This document shows positions 24,326 to 47,052 of a stretch of 64,000 nucleotides of DNA, in pieces. This DNA is from an uncultured bacterium (lineage in GTDB: Bacteria; Nitrospirota; Thermodesulfovibrionia; Thermodesulfovibrionales; Thermodesulfovibrionaceae), in contig CALLBR010000005.1 in NCBI GenBank assembly GCA_937998865.1, positions 1 to 64,000 of the forward strand. The letters run 5' to 3'. The notes below the pieces were generated by a model. The model was not told the origin of the DNA and did no database searches. It worked only from the letters and a program-made list of their open reading frames with translations. Every line of letters starts with the position of its first letter. Positions within the stretch are counted from its first letter, which is position 1. The position numbers and the translations under genes were made by a program.

Positions 24326-25057
24326 TTAGTATTTTAGAATTTCAAGGATATCTAGAATATCCTCTTTCGGGAAAGTTCCTTGACCAGATTTTAATGACAT
24401 GATTAAATCACTTCTGAATTTTTCTGTATCACCTTTGTAGGTTGAGTCAAATTTGAGAGAATTTCTTAAAATTCTGGATGCTTCTGAATAAAGTCCTAAT
24501 TTTTGATAACTAAGGGACATATATATATGTGCCTCTAAGAGCAAAATATTTCTTTTTATTGCCTTATCAAAGGAGTTTTTTGCTTCATCATATTTCCCAA
24601 GTCTGTAAAAGGATAAGCCTTGTCCAAAATAGGCTTTATCTTGAGTGACAAAGAGAGGATTACTTAAGGCATTACTGAAAGCTTTTATTGCTTCATTATG
24701 CATATGGAGATTCTGATAACAAATTCCAAGATTAAACCAAGCATCTCCGTCCTTTGAGTCAAGGGAGAGAGTTTTAAGGAAAAGCTCTTTTGCTACTTCA
24801 AATTCCTGAAATGCCATATGAACTAATGCCAATCCATGGAGAGCTTTTTTGTTTTGGGGATTGACCTGTAAAGCTTTATGAAACTCAGCATAGGCAAGTT
24901 GGTAATTTCTCTCTATGTAGTAAGCATAACCGATTTCTGTATGAAAATCAGATTCATTGGTTTGTCTAATTATTTCCTCAGAGGCACATGCTGTGAGAGT
25001 AATGATAAATATTAAGATCATGAATACCTTCATTCTCATTGACATATAGTATATCAT
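24326..25057 (-). CDS. TPR-repeat lipoprotein (PilF/BamD-like architecture)
   Basis: 243 residues. A lipoprotein signal ends in the lipobox LTAC, followed by about five TPR units, such as AYYIERNYQLAYAEFHKALQVNPQNKKAL and GDAWFNLGICYQNLHMHNEAIKAF. Predicted membrane lipoprotein acting as a protein-protein scaffold; no specific partner can be named. The start ATG overlaps mfd's TGA (ATGA). Later Met codons would give a shorter signal peptide. Confidence 0.85.
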   Translation of the reverse strand: MIYYMSMRMKVFMILIFIITLTACASEEIIRQTNESDFHTEIGYAYYIERNYQLAYAEFHKALQVNPQNKKALHGLALVHMAFQEFEVAKELFLKTLSLDSKDGDAWFNLGICYQNLHMHNEAIKAFSNALSNPLFVTQDKAYFGQGLSFYRLGKYDEAKNSFDKAIKRNILLLEAHIYMSLSYQKLGLYSEASRILRNSLKFDSTYKGDTEKFRSDLIMSLKSGQGTFPKEDILDILEILKY

Positions 25058-28000
25058 TTTTTCTCTTCTAATTTTGATATCAATTTTTTAAGTAATATAA
25101 TTATACTATCTAAATCTTTGATGCTGACCTCAAATCCCTGCGGATAAAATTTTAAATCTTGGATAATTTCTCTTTTTTTAAATTTATTGAGAGTAAAAAT
25201 CAATTTATTGATAAAATTCTCCTCAAGATTTTCCTGCATGATAAATTTAAAACCCTGTTTTTTCTGTTCAATTCTAGCAATTTTAAGCTTAAATGATAAA
25301 ATTCTTATTAATGATGCTTTAAGTAAATTTTCTACTTCTTGAGGAAGTTTGCCAAATCTATCAAAAATTTCCTCTTTAAGCTTTTTCACTTCATCAACTT
25401 CAACAATTTGACTTAGTTTTCTATATATTCTAATTCTCATGGAGGTATCTTCCATATAGTCTTCTGGAATAAAAGCTTTACCAATTAACTTTATCTCTGG
25501 AAGATTAGTCTGGACAATTGATTCTCCTTTGCTCTCTCTAATAGCTTCGTTTAACATTTCTATATATAGATCAAATCCTATTCTGTTTATTCCGGATTGT
25601 TCAATTCCTAATAGTTCTCCAGCTCCTCTTATCTCAAGATCTTTAAGGGCAATGTGGAATCCAGCCCCCAGATAACTCATTTCTTGAATGGCTTTAATCC
25701 TTTTTTTTGCATTTTCAGTTAGACCTTCTTCCTTAGGCACAATAAAGTAGGCATAGGCTTGTTTGTCTGCTCTTCCTACTCTACCTCTTATTTGATAAAG
25801 GTCACTTAACCCAAAAATATCAGCCCTATTTACAATTATGGTATTAACATTGGGAATATCTATTCCCGATGCAATGATGGAAGTACATACTAATATGTCA
25901 ATTTCTCTGTCTAAGAATTTTATCATGATTCTATTTAGCAAGTTTTCGCTCATTCTACCATGAGCTACAGCAATTCTTGCTGAAGGTATTAACGTTTTAA
26001 GTCGGCTCTCATAAACACGGATATCTTGAATTCTGTTATGTAAAAAATAAACCTGTCCATCTCTGCTTAGTTCTCTCTCTATGGCTTCCTTTATAATTTG
26101 GTAATCTTCTGAAATAATGAAACTTTTTACAGCTAATCTCTCTTTAGGAGGAGTTTGAATTATACTTATATCCCAAAGTCCGCTTAAACCTATTTGTAAA
26201 GTCCTTGGAATAGGAGTAGCAGTAATAGTTAGTAAGTCCACTTGAGGAAATTTCTCTTTTATTTTCTCTTTTTGAACTACACCAAATTTTTGCTCTTCAT
26301 CAATAATTAACAGACCAAGATCAAAAAAGTCTATTTCTTTTAAAATTAAAATGTGAGTTCCTATTAGAATGTCTACCTTTCCTTTTTGTGTATCTTCAAT
26401 AACTTTTTTAATCTCTGATTTTGTCCTAAATCTATTAAGGTATTCAATTCTAACGGGAAAGGCTTCAAATCTTTTTTTGAAAGTTCTATAGTGTTGTTCA
26501 CATAAAAGCGTTGTGGGAACTAATACAGCCACTTGTTTTTTATCATAGACAGCTCTAAAAGAAGCTCTCATAGCCACTTCTGTTTTTCCATATCCTGCAT
26601 CACCACATAAAATAATATCCATGGGATAAGTTTCTCTCATTTTTTTTAAGATTAAATCAATGGCTTTTTTCTGATCTTCTGTTTCTTCATAAGGAAAAAA
26701 GTCGTCAAAATTTCTATGTATTTCAGTGTCCTCACTGTATATAAACCCTCTTTCCCTTTTTCTTTGAGCATAAAGTTTGAGGAGTTTTTCAGCCACATCA
26801 TGTATCTTTTTTCTCTCTCTTTCCTTTAATTTTTGCCATCTCGTAGTTCCTAATTTATCAATTTGAGGAACATATCCTTCTTTTGCTGAATATCTATAGA
26901 CTTTTTCTATGCTCCATGTGGGAAGATAAATAATATCTCCACCAGCATATTCAATTACTAATACATCTTCTTCATTATCCTCATAATTTTGCCTTTTTAT
27001 TCCTCTAAAAATTCCTATTCCATGTTCCTTATGAACGACATAATCTCCCTCTTTAATCTCTAATCCCTCTAAGGGAATTTTTTGTAAGAGAGTTTTTTTT
27101 CTTTTGTGAAATTTTTCATCAAAAATTTCTCTATCTGTAAGGATTAGCAAGTTTTCCCTATGGAATCCCTCATGAAGTTCTCCCAAAGTAATAGCGTATT
27201 TACCAGAATAATGAGCCACATCATTTCTGTTAATAATAGGGGCGATTATTCCATGATTAAATAAAATTTCCTTTACAGTTTCAGCTTTTCCTAAAGAATT
27301 AAGGATTATAAGAATAGGGATTTGAAGTTCTTTTATATTTTTAGGAAAATCAAAAAGGCTTTTTCTCTCATTTTTGAGTATATTAAGACCTGTTAATGAT
27401 TTGTCCTTACCATCCATGGCATTTATAGAAAATTGATAGGGAAGATGCGATACATGAATGATTTTAAAATCCTTAAAGGTTTCATCCCTTAGATCAGAGC
27501 ATGATATAATCAAACTTTTAGGTCTAATTACATTGATTATATTTTCATTGCGAGAGGCTTCACGGGTGGGAAATATGGTAATTTCTGATAAACTTTTGAA
27601 AGATTTTTGTGTATCAGGATAGAAAAATTTTATTTCCTCTATAGTTTCACCAAAAAATTCAATTCGGTAAGGATATTCTTCTCCAAGGTTCCAAATATCA
27701 AAAACCCACCCATGATGAGAAAACTCTCCTTCCTGTAATACCATTTCTACTTGACGGTATCCAGCTTTAATTATTTTTCTTATAAATTCATTACGAGATA
27801 TTTCCTCTTCTTTCTTAATTTTGAAAGATAGTTTAAGAATTTCTCCATCAAACATTAAAGCATTCTTTGTTGTGATTAATCTTGGTTCACTAGAATTAAG
27901 AATTTCTATGATTGGTTTTGTTCTGCTTTCTTCCTCTGATGGAAGATAAATAACTGATAATTGAATATTAAAAAAATCAGAAAAGGTTTTTAATGCAGTG

Positions 28001-28194
28001 AAGACCTTCTGAGCAGCCTCTTCATTTTCTTCAATCACCACAAAGGATTCTTCATAAAACAAAAGTCCTAATGCAAAAGAGGAAATGGAGAGATTGTAGA
28101 TTGAGTTATGATCTCTCAGTAAGTTTGCTATTGTATCTTTTTCTTTAGTTAAGGCCTGCGATAAACTTCTGTATCCTTTTTCGTTATAGTTCAT
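25054..28194 (-). CDS. mfd: Transcription-repair coupling factor Mfd
   Basis: 1046 residues. Order: degenerate UvrB-like N-terminal module, RNA polymerase-interacting domain (KEGDYVVHKEHGIGIFRG), RecG-like translocase with Walker A CGDAGYGKTEVAMRA and LLIIDEEQKFGV, helicase C-terminal domain (ASGIDIPNVNTIIVNRAD, YQIRGRVGRADKQAYAYF) and a C-terminal TRCF domain. Slightly shorter than the E. coli protein (1148) but complete. Releases stalled RNA polymerase and recruits UvrA. Overlaps the TPR gene by 4 nt, and its start shares the last base of the ubiA stop. Confidence 0.97.
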   Translation of the reverse strand: MNYNEKGYRSLSQALTKEKDTIANLLRDHNSIYNLSISSFALGLLFYEESFVVIEENEEAAQKVFTALKTFSDFFNIQLSVIYLPSEEESRTKPIIEILNSSEPRLITTKNALMFDGEILKLSFKIKKEEEISRNEFIRKIIKAGYRQVEMVLQEGEFSHHGWVFDIWNLGEEYPYRIEFFGETIEEIKFFYPDTQKSFKSLSEITIFPTREASRNENIINVIRPKSLIISCSDLRDETFKDFKIIHVSHLPYQFSINAMDGKDKSLTGLNILKNERKSLFDFPKNIKELQIPILIILNSLGKAETVKEILFNHGIIAPIINRNDVAHYSGKYAITLGELHEGFHRENLLILTDREIFDEKFHKRKKTLLQKIPLEGLEIKEGDYVVHKEHGIGIFRGIKRQNYEDNEEDVLVIEYAGGDIIYLPTWSIEKVYRYSAKEGYVPQIDKLGTTRWQKLKERERKKIHDVAEKLLKLYAQRKRERGFIYSEDTEIHRNFDDFFPYEETEDQKKAIDLILKKMRETYPMDIILCGDAGYGKTEVAMRASFRAVYDKKQVAVLVPTTLLCEQHYRTFKKRFEAFPVRIEYLNRFRTKSEIKKVIEDTQKGKVDILIGTHILILKEIDFFDLGLLIIDEEQKFGVVQKEKIKEKFPQVDLLTITATPIPRTLQIGLSGLWDISIIQTPPKERLAVKSFIISEDYQIIKEAIERELSRDGQVYFLHNRIQDIRVYESRLKTLIPSARIAVAHGRMSENLLNRIMIKFLDREIDILVCTSIIASGIDIPNVNTIIVNRADIFGLSDLYQIRGRVGRADKQAYAYFIVPKEEGLTENAKKRIKAIQEMSYLGAGFHIALKDLEIRGAGELLGIEQSGINRIGFDLYIEMLNEAIRESKGESIVQTNLPEIKLIGKAFIPEDYMEDTSMRIRIYRKLSQIVEVDEVKKLKEEIFDRFGKLPQEVENLLKASLIRILSFKLKIARIEQKKQGFKFIMQENLEENFINKLIFTLNKFKKREIIQDLKFYPQGFEVSIKDLDSIIILLKKLISKLEEKK

Positions 28195-29057
28195 TAAAAT
28201 TTAACAAGTAAAGAGAGGGCTACAAAGACAAAAAAGGTAACGCTTATATATCCATTCATATTAAAAAAGGCAATATTAAGCTTGGACAGATCATGGGCTT
28301 TTACAAGAGAATGTTCTTTAACAAAGAGCAAGGCAATTATAGTCATGCCAATCCAGTAAATAATGTTTAATTTAAAAAGCCAACCAATTATTAATAAAAA
28401 GGAGAAAGAAATGAAATGAAATATTCTTGAAAAATATATTGCCTTATTTATCCCGAAAACTCTTGGAATAGAATAAATACCATATTTTTTATCAAATTCT
28501 ACATCCCATAAGGCATATAAAGTGTCAAATCCTGCAAGCCAAAAAACAACTGCTAATGCCATAGGCAAAATTTCCCAATTAAAATCACCTTTAATGGCAA
28601 TCCATGCTCCTAAGGGAGCTAAAGCTAAGGCTAATCCTAGAAAAAAATGACATGCCCAGGTGAATCTCTTTGTATATGAATAGATAAAGAGAACTAATAC
28701 AGCAACAGGAGAGAGTTTAAAACACAAGGGATTTAACATCCAAGCAGAGAAGATGAAAATAACAAGACATACACTGGTAAATAAAATTGCTTCCCAAAGT
28801 TTAATTTTTCCAGTTGGGATTTCCCTCTTGGCAGTCCGAGGATTTAGGGCATCGATTTTTCTATCTATGATTCTATTAAAACCAAAGGCTGAAGCTCTTG
28901 CACTTACCATTGCAAAGGTTATCCAGAGTATTTTTTTTATCTCTGGAATACCACCTGCAGCAAGCATAGCAGCAGCAAAAGCAAAGGGAAGGGCAAACAC
29001 ACTATGTTCAATCTTTATCATCCTTAAATACAATATAGCTTTATTAAAAAGGGACAT
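28194..29057 (-). CDS. UbiA-family prenyltransferase (UbiA/MqnP-like)
   Basis: 287 residues, about eight membrane helices. Both Asp-rich motifs are present: NRIIDRKIDALNPRTAKREIPTG (NxxxDxxxD) and DTLYALWDVEFDKKYG (DxxxD). It should attach a polyprenyl chain to an aromatic acid for quinone synthesis. In organisms making menaquinone by the futalosine route the homologue is MqnP, which is plausible here, but 4-hydroxybenzoate specificity cannot be excluded. ATG at 29057 is preferred to the track's TTG at 29060; there is no Shine-Dalgarno, and a -10 hexamer ends 6 nt before the ATG. First gene of the - strand operon down to the NtrC gene. Confidence 0.9.
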   Translation of the reverse strand: MSLFNKAILYLRMIKIEHSVFALPFAFAAAMLAAGGIPEIKKILWITFAMVSARASAFGFNRIIDRKIDALNPRTAKREIPTGKIKLWEAILFTSVCLVIFIFSAWMLNPLCFKLSPVAVLVLFIYSYTKRFTWACHFFLGLALALAPLGAWIAIKGDFNWEILPMALAVVFWLAGFDTLYALWDVEFDKKYGIYSIPRVFGINKAIYFSRIFHFISFSFLLIIGWLFKLNIIYWIGMTIIALLFVKEHSLVKAHDLSKLNIAFFNMNGYISVTFFVFVALSLLVKF

Positions 29058-29063
29058 CAAATT

Positions 29064-29091
29064 ATTATAACATCATTGAAGAATATGAAAA
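29064..29091 (-). promoter_or_regulatory. Extended -10 promoter of ubiA, predicted leaderless
   Basis: On the - strand TGTTATAAT (TGn plus TATAAT at 29069-29064) has TTTTCA 16 bp upstream (29091-29086). The six bases after TATAAT are followed directly by the ubiA ATG, so the predicted +1 is the A of ATG. Confidence 0.6.
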
Positions 29092-29180
29092 TATTTAGCT
29101 TATATTTTCCTTTAATTTGCCTTCTCTGCCAAAGGTCATTTCTGAGAGATTTAATACTTTAAATTTCTCTTTTTTTTCTG

Positions 29181-29186
29181 TAAAAT
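29181..29186 (+). promoter_or_regulatory. -10 element of the SprA-like gene, predicted leaderless
   Basis: TAAAAT is followed by exactly six bases and then the ATG at 29193. No Shine-Dalgarno is present; the upstream TTTAAA at 17 bp is only a weak -35. Confidence 0.45.
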
Positions 29187-29192
29187 TTATTT

Positions 29193-29612
29193 ATGGAAAT
29201 TAAAACTCAAATATTTTCAATAAACTCCATTGAACAAATAAAAGTCAATGAAATAATTCAGACTTTGAAGAGAATCCAACAAAGGGTGATTTCCCATGAA
29301 AGGGCTCATAAAGCTGTTGGTGGGAAATATGCTGGCACAGTTCATTATTCCTATACTAAAGGACCTGATGGAAAAAAGATGTATATAACAGCAGGAGAAG
29401 TTAGTCTTGATTTGTCGGAGGAGGCATCTCCTAAGGAAACAGCAAAAAAAATGGAGATAATTCAGGCTGCTGCTTTAGCTCCATCAGATCCATCTCCACA
29501 AGACATTCGTGTAGCCCAAATAGCAGCTATAAAAAAAATGCGAGCAGAAATAGAAAATTCTGTTGAAGAAGAGAGGAACAAAAAGGGATTAATAATAAAT
29601 AGATCTATTTAA
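29193..29612 (+). CDS. SprA-related putative zinc metallopeptidase
   Basis: 139 residues. An HExxH zinc site is seen at 35-39 (ISHERAHKAVGG), followed by YAGTVHYSYTKGPDGKKMYITAGEVSLDL and a later IIQAALAPSDPSPQD-like segment, the layout of the SprA-related putative metallopeptidase family. No signal peptide, so cytoplasmic unless exported otherwise. Related proteins are usually longer with a variable N-terminus; this is a minimal form. Divergent from ubiA. Substrate unknown. Confidence 0.8.
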   Translation: MEIKTQIFSINSIEQIKVNEIIQTLKRIQQRVISHERAHKAVGGKYAGTVHYSYTKGPDGKKMYITAGEVSLDLSEEASPKETAKKMEIIQAAALAPSDPSPQDIRVAQIAAIKKMRAEIENSVEEERNKKGLIINRSI

Positions 29613-44231: not shown

Positions 44232-46322
44232 TTGGATAAAGATATAGTTTTAGACTTTATTAGGAAATCTTCCAAGCCTCTAAGTTTTAGAGAAATATCA
44301 GAAGGGCTTAATCTTAAGTCCTCCATGAGAAAAAAATTAAAGAAGCTTCTTCAGGATTTGCTCTCAGAAGGTAACATTATAAGGAATAGAAAAGGTCTTT
44401 ATCTTCCCCTTAAAGAAGCAAAATTAGTAACAGGATATTTTGAGGCTCATAAAGAGGGATATGGATTTGTAATCCCTGACTCTCCAAAGGAAACCGACAT
44501 ATTTATCCCACCTCATGCAACTTCTGGAGCCATGCATGGTGATAGAGTTATTGCAAGAGTAGAACATAAAAGGAAAAGAGAGGGGGCTATAATTCGAATT
44601 CTTGAGAGAGCTATCAGGAGAGTGGTTGGTTTTGTTGAAAAAATAGGTCCTATTTTTTATGTTAGACCCAGAAAACGACTAATTCAGCAACAAATAATAT
44701 TAACTCCTGAGCAAAAAAATATAAAAACAGGTTGTCTTGTTTTAGCTGAAATTATAAAGTATCAAAAAATCAACAATCCCCTCATAGCAAAGGTGATTAA
44801 GATTTTTGAAAAGCCTAAGTCTCCTAAGGATGATATAGAAATACTTATCCAGGAGTATGATCTTCCTCAAAAATTTTCCTCAGAATCTGAAAAGGAAGCA
44901 AAAAAAATTCAAAACACAAAAGTTAACACAAAAAGAAATCTTAAAGGCAGGGTAGATCTGCGACACCTCCCCACCGTAACTATTGATGGTGAATCAGCAA
45001 AAGATTTTGATGATGCAATTTCCATAAAAAAAACTAAAAAGGGATTTATTCTTTGGGTTCACATAGCTGATGTAAGTCACTATGTTAAATGGGATAGTCC
45101 CCTTGATTTAGAGGCAAGACAGAGAGGAACAAGTATATATTTCCCTGATAGAGTAATCCCCATGCTGCCACCCCAGCTTAGCGAAAATGTATGTAGTTTA
45201 CTACCTAAAATACCGAGACTTACTTTTACTGTAGAAATGCATTTTTCAAATTTAGGAGAGCTTACAGAGAGAGATTTCTATCCCAGTATTATTCAGACTG
45301 CAGAGAGAATGACTTATACCTCTGTAAGTAGGATTTTAGTAGACAGAGATGCTGAGGAGATTAAAAGATATAAAAAATTAATACCATATTTTGAAAAGAT
45401 GGCTGAACTATGTGAATTGCTTAAGAATAAGAGAAAAGCAAGAGGAAGTTTAGATTTTGATCTTCCAGAACCTGAAATACTTTTAGATATCAAAGGAGAC
45501 CCTCAAGCAATAATTAAAGCAGAGAGAAATCTTGCTCATTTTATCATAGAGGAATTTATGATTGTTGCCAATGAAACTGTAGCAGAATTTTTATATTCTA
45601 ATAAAATTCCCACTCTCTACAGAGTACATGAAACACCTGAACAGAACAAAATTCAGTATCTTACGAAAATAATAAAAAATTTAGGTATATTAAAAGAAGA
45701 CATTAAACCTAAAGATTTTCCAGAATTGATTAGATTAATTAAAGATACACCTTATGAGGAAATTGTGAATTATCTAATACTTAGAAGTTTAAAACAAGCA
45801 AGATACAGTCCTGAAAACGTAGGACATTTCGGTCTTGCCTCAGAATGTTATACTCATTTTACATCACCTATAAGAAGATACCCAGACCTTGTTGTTCATA
45901 GAATACTAAAGGAATTTATTATTAAGAAAAAGTTATCGAAGGAGAGATTAAGTTTCTTAGAGAAAATATTAACAGAAATTGCCATCCATAGTTCTCGCAT
46001 GGAAAGAAGAGCCGATAGCATTGAGAGAGATTCTATCCAAATAATGAGAGTTTGGTTTATGAAGGATAAAATAGGCGAAGAATTCTCTGGAAAAGTGACA
46101 ATGGTTACTCCAGAAGGATTGAGGGTTAGACTGGAAGATTATTTTATTGATGGTTTTCTACATTTATCCCATATGACTGATGATTTTTATCAATTTGATG
46201 AAAAGCGATATTGCCTTTTGGGACTTAAAAAAAAGAGAAAATTTACTATAGGAACATCTCTTATGGTTAAGGTATCAAAGGTAAGCCTTGATGAGCGAGA
46301 GATATTTTTTGACCTTCTATGA
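44232..46322 (+). CDS. rnr: Ribonuclease R
   Basis: 696 residues. Order: N-terminal helix-turn-helix (KPLSFREISEGLN), two cold-shock OB domains (TGYFEAHKEGYGFVIPD), the RNB catalytic domain (TIDGESAKDFDDAISIKK, with Asp residues for Mg2+) and a C-terminal S1 domain. 3'-5' exoribonuclease that degrades structured RNA. Start is TTG at 44232 with AAAGGA upstream. The last 56 nt overlap the convergent methyltransferase gene in antisense. Confidence 0.96.
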   Translation: MDKDIVLDFIRKSSKPLSFREISEGLNLKSSMRKKLKKLLQDLLSEGNIIRNRKGLYLPLKEAKLVTGYFEAHKEGYGFVIPDSPKETDIFIPPHATSGAMHGDRVIARVEHKRKREGAIIRILERAIRRVVGFVEKIGPIFYVRPRKRLIQQQIILTPEQKNIKTGCLVLAEIIKYQKINNPLIAKVIKIFEKPKSPKDDIEILIQEYDLPQKFSSESEKEAKKIQNTKVNTKRNLKGRVDLRHLPTVTIDGESAKDFDDAISIKKTKKGFILWVHIADVSHYVKWDSPLDLEARQRGTSIYFPDRVIPMLPPQLSENVCSLLPKIPRLTFTVEMHFSNLGELTERDFYPSIIQTAERMTYTSVSRILVDRDAEEIKRYKKLIPYFEKMAELCELLKNKRKARGSLDFDLPEPEILLDIKGDPQAIIKAERNLAHFIIEEFMIVANETVAEFLYSNKIPTLYRVHETPEQNKIQYLTKIIKNLGILKEDIKPKDFPELIRLIKDTPYEEIVNYLILRSLKQARYSPENVGHFGLASECYTHFTSPIRRYPDLVVHRILKEFIIKKKLSKERLSFLEKILTEIAIHSSRMERRADSIERDSIQIMRVWFMKDKIGEEFSGKVTMVTPEGLRVRLEDYFIDGFLHLSHMTDDFYQFDEKRYCLLGLKKKRKFTIGTSLMVKVSKVSLDEREIFFDLL

Positions 46323-47052
46323 AAAGAACTTCATAAGTTGCTTTCACCCCTTTTTCATTACCAAAATGTTTTTCATAAACTTCACAAAATCTTTTAAAAG
46401 AATTTTTACCGGAGAATTTTTTATTCTCCGTAAAATTAGTACCTGTCCTTTTAAGACAATAGAGCAAATCTGTCACTGTAGGATATTTTGCAATGAATTG
46501 TTTGGTATAGAATTTATATTTTATGGTGGGTATTGAATCTAAAAGATTTAGATAAGAGTAAGAGGGCTTTAAGTTATAAAGAGAACCAAAGCCACTTAAT
46601 TTTGATGCTACTTTTATTTCATAAAGAGTATTAGGGACAAAGATTGAAAAATAAAACTTGGCACCTTCCCTAAGAACACTAAGAATATCTAAAAAGCTTC
46701 TTCTATTCTCTAACCAATGAAGTGTAGAAGAACTGATCAAAAGATTAACACTATATGGTTTAATGGGTAAATTTTCAGCTTCTGCATTTAAGTAGAAACA
46801 TGACATTTTTAGAGAATCTTTTAGTTTTTTAAGCATTCTAAAAGAAATATCAATGTTTATATATCTGTTGAAAGATATTTTTTTAATGAGTGGTATTGTT
46901 ACAAAACCTAAACCAGAGCCGATTTCTACCACAGTCTCATAAAAATCATGGGCTATCATATCTAAAAGATGAATAGCTACTTTCTTTTGTATGTATCCTG
47001 ATTGACCATAGGTATTTGAAGCTTTTTCAAAGTAAAATTTTAGAGGCTTCAT
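46267..47052 (-). CDS. BioC-like SAM-dependent methyltransferase
   Basis: 261 residues. Class I methyltransferase with motif I TVVEIGSGLGFVTIPL and SSSTLHWLENRR, and the N-terminal FYFEKASNTYGQSGYIQKKVA region typical of malonyl-ACP O-methyltransferase BioC. No other biotin genes are present, so the specificity is a guess. The last 13 residues or so are encoded antisense to the end of rnr. There is no Shine-Dalgarno; an extended -10 lies just before the ATG. Confidence 0.78.
   Translation of the reverse strand: MKPLKFYFEKASNTYGQSGYIQKKVAIHLLDMIAHDFYETVVEIGSGLGFVTIPLIKKISFNRYINIDISFRMLKKLKDSLKMSCFYLNAEAENLPIKPYSVNLLISSSTLHWLENRRSFLDILSVLREGAKFYFSIFVPNTLYEIKVASKLSGFGSLYNLKPSYSYLNLLDSIPTIKYKFYTKQFIAKYPTVTDLLYCLKRTGTNFTENKKFSGKNSFKRFCEVYEKHFGNEKGVKATYEVLFIEGQKISLAHQGLPLIP

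Follow-up and report, generated by a model that had tools for sequence, protein, structure and literature searches.

Two divergent genes in the DNA that we analysed, a stretch of 64,000 nucleotides referred to here as the window, very probably each start from a −10 element placed directly before the ATG. Their messages would be leaderless, with the ATG recognised by the ribosome. The genes are ubiA and a gene for a short SprA-related protein, and they lie in a Thermodesulfovibrio genome (Nitrospirota) with a sampled GC content of 33%, whose relatives are other genomes and MAGs of Thermodesulfovibrio. The features of the window that bear on this finding are as follows.

28194–29057, minus strand: ubiA-family prenyltransferase (PF01040, E=6.8e-60), with a putative leaderless start at 29057
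29064–29072, minus strand: extended −10 element of ubiA, TGTTATAAT, invariant in 13 of 13 genus genomes
29057–29058, minus strand: predicted ubiA transcription start (A of the ATG or the preceding G), placed by the 6-nt spacing of TATAAT
29193–29612, plus strand: short SprA-related protein (PF12118, 93.2 bits, cut-off 27.3) with an HExxH motif (HERAH) and a putative leaderless start at 29193
29181–29186, plus strand: −10 element of the SprA-related gene, TAAAAT; its orthologs carry TANAAT
25054–28194, minus strand: mfd, transcription-repair coupling factor, with TRCF, CarD/RID and helicase domains
46267–47052, minus strand: methyltransferase, a further leaderless-type gene, TGTTAAACT-N5-ATG, start at 47052

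Start sites in the window

On the minus strand ubiA reads 5'-TGTTATAATAATTTGATG, in which TATAAT (29069–29064) is followed by AATTTG and the ATG (29057–29055), and a TG at 29072–29071 provides the TGn extension. The SprA-related gene reads 5'-TAAAATTTATTTATG on the plus strand, with TAAAAT, TTATTT and the ATG at 29193. The first T of the −10 lies 12 bp before the ATG in both genes, and 11–15 bp before it in the ubiA orthologs. When a Shine-Dalgarno (SD) sequence was scored as a match of at least 4 nt to AAGGAGGTGA in positions −20 to −4, no such match was found in the 20 nt upstream of either start. Direct reading of the sequence thus bears out the original prediction that both ATGs lack an SD and have a −10 hexamer six bases ahead. 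The same prediction held that most other genes in the window have strong AGGAGG sites, which was overstated: AGGAGG was found at 12 of the 54 genes called in the window, and the SD match was at least 5 nt long in 28, 4 nt in 14 and absent in 12. Beyond the ubiA/SprA-related pair, the window contains at least one more leaderless-type start, that of the methyltransferase gene at 47052 (minus strand), whose ortholog in a second Thermodesulfovibrio genome, G010, reads TGTTAGAAT-N6-ATG. As a counterpoint to the leaderless reading, a weak −35-like hexamer lies upstream of each of the two divergent genes: TTTTCA, 16 nt upstream, for ubiA, and TTTAAA at 29158–29163 before the SprA-related gene, with a spacer of 17.

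Conservation of the ubiA promoter

We found that TGTTATAAT is kept in all 13 Thermodesulfovibrio species with ubiA, 5–9 nt before the ATG; the individual spacers are 6, 6, 8, 5, 6, 8, 8, 8, 8, 9, 8, 8 and 8 nt. When the 13 genomes were aligned on this element, none of 80 upstream columns was invariant, and the third base was invariant at none of the 47 four-fold sites of the gene at which the first two bases are fixed. Across the 13 genus loci we detected no conserved −35, which fits an extended −10 promoter. Furthermore, nine of the 13 orthologs (those with spacer 5 or 8) have an in-frame stop within or beside the −10, making a start of the reading frame further upstream impossible there. The element also stays while the upstream neighbour of ubiA changes, from the SprA-related gene to tRNA-Cys, a 1.2-kb divergent ORF and several unrelated genes. 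As a separate observation, a divergent TGTTATAAT-N7-ATG lies close upstream of ubiA in one genome, G005 (C8:131412–131430, plus strand, beside ubiA in L012), and fronts a gene that is not the SprA-related one.

These results support one part of the original prediction and revise another. The leaderless configuration is supported by the conserved −10 and by the genome-wide peak reported below. The placement of +1 on the A of the ATG as a fixed rule did not hold, because TATAAT lies 5, 6, 8 or 9 nt from the ATG, depending on the ubiA ortholog; the common feature would be a leader of 0–3 nt, and orthologs with other spacings possibly have short leaders of 1–3 nt. For the two window genes, both with N6, +1 on the A of the ATG is the best prediction, and exact transcription start positions are predictions throughout.

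The two genes might instead have ordinary leaders made from promoters further upstream and be translated without an SD, the AT-rich stretch before the ATG serving as an unstructured landing site for the ribosome. Bacteria do have leadered genes that lack an SD, the intergene is AT-rich, and promoter-like matches in the region number 7 where 3.2 are expected. However, a landing site needs neither an invariant nine-base TGTTATAAT at 5–9 nt nor a sharp positional peak with TGn throughout the genome, and no other upstream column is conserved. We consider this explanation improbable, although longer ubiA or SprA-related transcripts from upstream promoters may exist alongside leaderless ones.

Outside the genus, ubiA carries TATCAT 7 nt before the ATG in family f12 (L014 and L015), an SD and leader in family f2 (L019 and L022), and ambiguous upstream regions in the other families. 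We therefore confine the claim of a leaderless ubiA to the genus.

The ubiA product scored 323.5 bits against TIGR01475 (cut-off 180.8). Against the MqnP model NF041586 it reached 310.6 bits, below the cut-off of 430, and its scores with the other MqnP models were lower still, so we assigned it only as UbiA-like (TIGR01475). The genome also encodes MqnC of the futalosine pathway (521.5 bits, cut-off 428.1). The product therefore resembles the MqnP group in its UbiA-family match and in the presence of MqnC in the genome, but differs in scoring below the strict MqnP cut-offs. It is probably a prenyltransferase of the menaquinone pathway.

The genes flanking the ubiA start

The SprA-related gene is single-copy in the genome and was found in four of the 13 genus genomes searched (G000, the genome of the window, to G012). 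In all four orthologs TANAAT lies 5–6 nt before the ATG, in arrangements that include TAAAAT-N6-ATG (L040), TATAAT-N6-ATG (L041) and TAAAAT-N5-ATG (L042), and two matches outside the genus appear leadered. The protein has the HERAH motif in common with PF12118, but at 139 aa it is short, matching just positions 186–294 of the 335 in the profile. A member of the family in Campylobacter, CJM1_0395, is a candidate for flagellar export (PMC5223770).

Another possibility is that ubiA and the SprA-related gene form a functional divergent unit with one common regulatory region. They are divergent, 135 bp apart and each furnished with a promoter, and G009, the closest relative, likewise has them side by side. 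Elsewhere in the genus, however, they sit on separate contigs or the genome lacks the SprA-related gene; ubiA keeps its promoter beside other upstream neighbours, and the two −10 boxes are separate, 111 bp apart. The neighbourhood is not conserved, and we rejected such a unit as very unlikely.

On its other side, the ubiA stop codon overlaps the mfd start by one base (TAATG, 28194), and mfd has no SD. This arrangement points to coupling, and mfd is probably translated in this way from the leaderless ubiA. The order ubiA–mfd was found at six of 13 genus loci. In G010, where mfd does not adjoin ubiA, it has a leaderless-type −10 of its own, TAAAAT-N5-ATG.

Genome-wide signal before SD-less starts

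Our genome-wide figures come from pattern searches and from sampled stretches of 360–438 kb in each genome. Gene calling covered the window's genome (438 kb), G010 (400 kb), G026 of family f12 (400 kb) and G016 of family f2 (360 kb). The pattern TANNNT-N6-ATG has 1345 matches in the 1.75 Mb of the window's genome, and its reversed control has 1057. The bare pattern is common in an AT-rich genome and is therefore weak proof when taken alone, so position and conservation were tested. A scan for TANNNT before SD-less ATG starts across the genome, as the original prediction had proposed, gave the matching peak at a spacing of 5–8 nt, with its top at 6, in all four genomes sampled; the peak was weaker in the two other families of the order than in G000 and G010. 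In the window's genome, TANNNT was present at a spacing of 5–9 nt in 47 of 97 SD-less ATG starts, compared with 19.1 ± 3.8 in dinucleotide shuffles, and TGnTANNNT in 19, compared with 1.0 ± 1.1. The corresponding counts and shuffle values for G010, G026 and G016 were 41 and 18.7, 30 and 15.6, and 38 and 19.2 for TANNNT, and 21 and 1.1, 5 and 1.0, and 14 and 1.1 for TGnTANNNT. At internal SD-less ATGs, which served as controls, TANNNT was found in 12% and TGnTANNNT in 1.1%. In E. coli MG1655 (200 kb sampled), SD-less ATG starts showed no TANNNT peak.

In addition, TGTTATAAT followed after 5–8 nt by an ATG occurs 161 times in ten genus genomes summed, against 20 for the reversed control (about 8-fold). 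The leaderless class is also kept between G000 and G010, where four of five genes of this class with an ortholog in both samples retained it (Fisher P = 0.0004). A chance placement of TANNNT near an ATG in a genome of 33% GC, which the modest excess of the bare pattern over its reversed control would allow, is scarcely credible: the element is strictly conserved at ubiA (13/13) and in the SprA-related gene (4/4), and TANNNT precedes 47 of 97 SD-less starts where shuffles give 19. For ubiA, conservation refutes chance.

From the excess over expectation in the TANNNT spacing counts, we estimate that roughly 9–10% of genes would be leaderless in the two Thermodesulfovibrio genomes sampled and roughly 4–7% in the two other families (f12 and f2), shares that are rough because starts were picked by a simple rule. 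The leaderless candidates include DnaJ-, MiaB-, TilS-, TatA- and ScpA-like housekeeping genes, labels that were given by recognising N-termini by eye, with no family search. The assembly showed no match to the 16S 3'-end pattern GGATCACCTCCTTT; as proxies for the anti-SD we used the SD use among the sampled genes (177 of 381) and the class-level anti-SD given in PMC10783764.

Back-to-back close divergent pairs

When listing leaderless candidates, we found divergent genes whose start codons lie almost back to back. A scan of the samples, ortholog searches and upstream comparison gave at least five divergent pairs with start codons 15–23 bp apart. In these pairs the intergene consists of little more than one quasi-palindromic −10 that likely fires both ways and would yield two leaderless messages.

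L050:7545–7565 (on the window's contig, G000:C5:71545–71565), divergent, 21 bp: ABC ATPase and a 167-aa protein; orthologs L172–L179
L050:15595–15611, divergent, 17 bp: HemN-like radical SAM protein and radical SAM-SPASM protein; orthologs L187–L193
L110:10463–10477, divergent, 15 bp: AmiA-like protein and amidohydrolase; orthologs L211–L219
L110:8369–8389, divergent: ZIP transporter and 2-thiouracil desulfurase (DUF1722); orthologs L200–L206
L045:717–737, divergent: methyltransferase and His_biosynth-family gene; orthologs L223–L230

Between the ABC ATPase and the 167-aa protein the sequence is CAT-gatttttAGTATAATaatttt-ATG, which reads TATAAT-N6-ATG one way and TATACT-N7-ATG the other; this pair is kept in eight Thermodesulfovibrio species, two of which start the ATPase gene with GTG. 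The gap between the HemN-like and SPASM genes is exactly 17 bp in 7/7 species, with the core TATTATA, while the identity of the HemN-like protein falls to as little as 48%. For the AmiA-like/amidohydrolase pair, the gap is 15 bp in eight species besides the reference G010, and a ninth species has the same intergene sequence with the N-terminus unaligned. The gap measures 20–23 bp in six of eight species for the ZIP/2-thiouracil desulfurase pair and 21–22 bp in seven of eight for the methyltransferase/His_biosynth-family pair. A quasi-palindromic −10 was found in all five, with the cores TATTATA, TATCATA, AGTATAAC, TATATTATAAT and AGTATAAT, its symmetry being weakest in the pair with AGTATAAC.

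Family searches indicated that the paired genes are real. Of 468 candidate start pairs in a 200-kb sample of E. coli, none qualified. A stricter scan that admitted only adjacent called genes gave fewer pairs, so that their number per genome is uncertain. Transcription starts at both start codons would lie 16–24 bp apart; a 17-bp gap would give 18.

Discussion

We propose that ubiA and the SprA-related gene would be transcribed from sigma-70-type promoters, the former from the extended −10 TGTTATAAT without a conserved −35 and the latter from TAAAAT. RNA polymerase would start about 0–3 nt from the AUG, leaving no leader and no SD, and the 5'-terminal AUG itself would be recognised by the ribosome. 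The ubiA message probably runs on into mfd and the genes downstream, with mfd presumably translated through stop-start coupling at TAATG. Roughly one in ten Thermodesulfovibrio genes would be expressed in this general way, the two described here among them. The pair is ordinary in kind, and it is better supported than reading the sequence alone could show.

Zheng et al. (2011) reported that bacterial leaderless genes carry a TA-like signal (TANNNT) some 12 bp ahead of the start codon, and a TG before the −10 has been described for leaderless genes of low-GC genomes (PMC3160421). The genes studied here resemble these in having a −10 that starts 12 bp before the ATG, no SD, and TAtAAT with TG. 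Nitrospirae are absent among the leaderless-bearing groups named in that study. Our searches of the open-access literature turned up no study of leaderless genes in Nitrospirota, the per-phylum figures of PMC12340547 aside. That survey covered the bacterial domain and describes a −10 motif for the leaderless genes of Deinococcus-Thermus. The share of leaderless genes is 30–40% in Deinococcus-Thermus, well above the 9–10% or so estimated for Thermodesulfovibrio.

The close pairs recall a second known system. As PMC12825309 and PMC10268837 relate, Warman et al. (2021) described bidirectional promoters that arise from −10 symmetry. Such promoters are known from E. coli and Salmonella, with 18 bp as the commonest distance between starts, 23 bp also common and 10 bp recorded as well. 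The close pairs are alike in having one quasi-palindromic −10 between divergent genes but differ in that the start codons flank the box, so that both messages would be leaderless. Leaderless genes are not mentioned in PMC12825309 or PMC10268837, and a literature search joining bidirectional promoters with leaderless genes returned no relevant paper. We also considered the ubiA/SprA-related pair as a promoter of this type, which calls for a shared −10 and starts 7–25 bp apart, and rejected it since the two genes have separate boxes at 29064–29069 and 29181–29186.

Collectively, these data suggest that an order of the Nitrospirota joins the lineages with a sizeable set of leaderless genes, using extended −10 promoters. 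The leaderless state of ubiA appears fixed across the genus and ubiA is SD-led in at least one other family (f2), which opens a switch of start mode to study. Annotation of these genomes calls for start prediction by a leaderless model. The close pairs are a more interesting consequence than the ubiA/SprA-related pair. If true, they would be very small complete promoters, with two promoters and two translation starts in about 20 bp, and one could ask directly how a single −10 box serves two polymerases and whether expression alternates between the paired genes.
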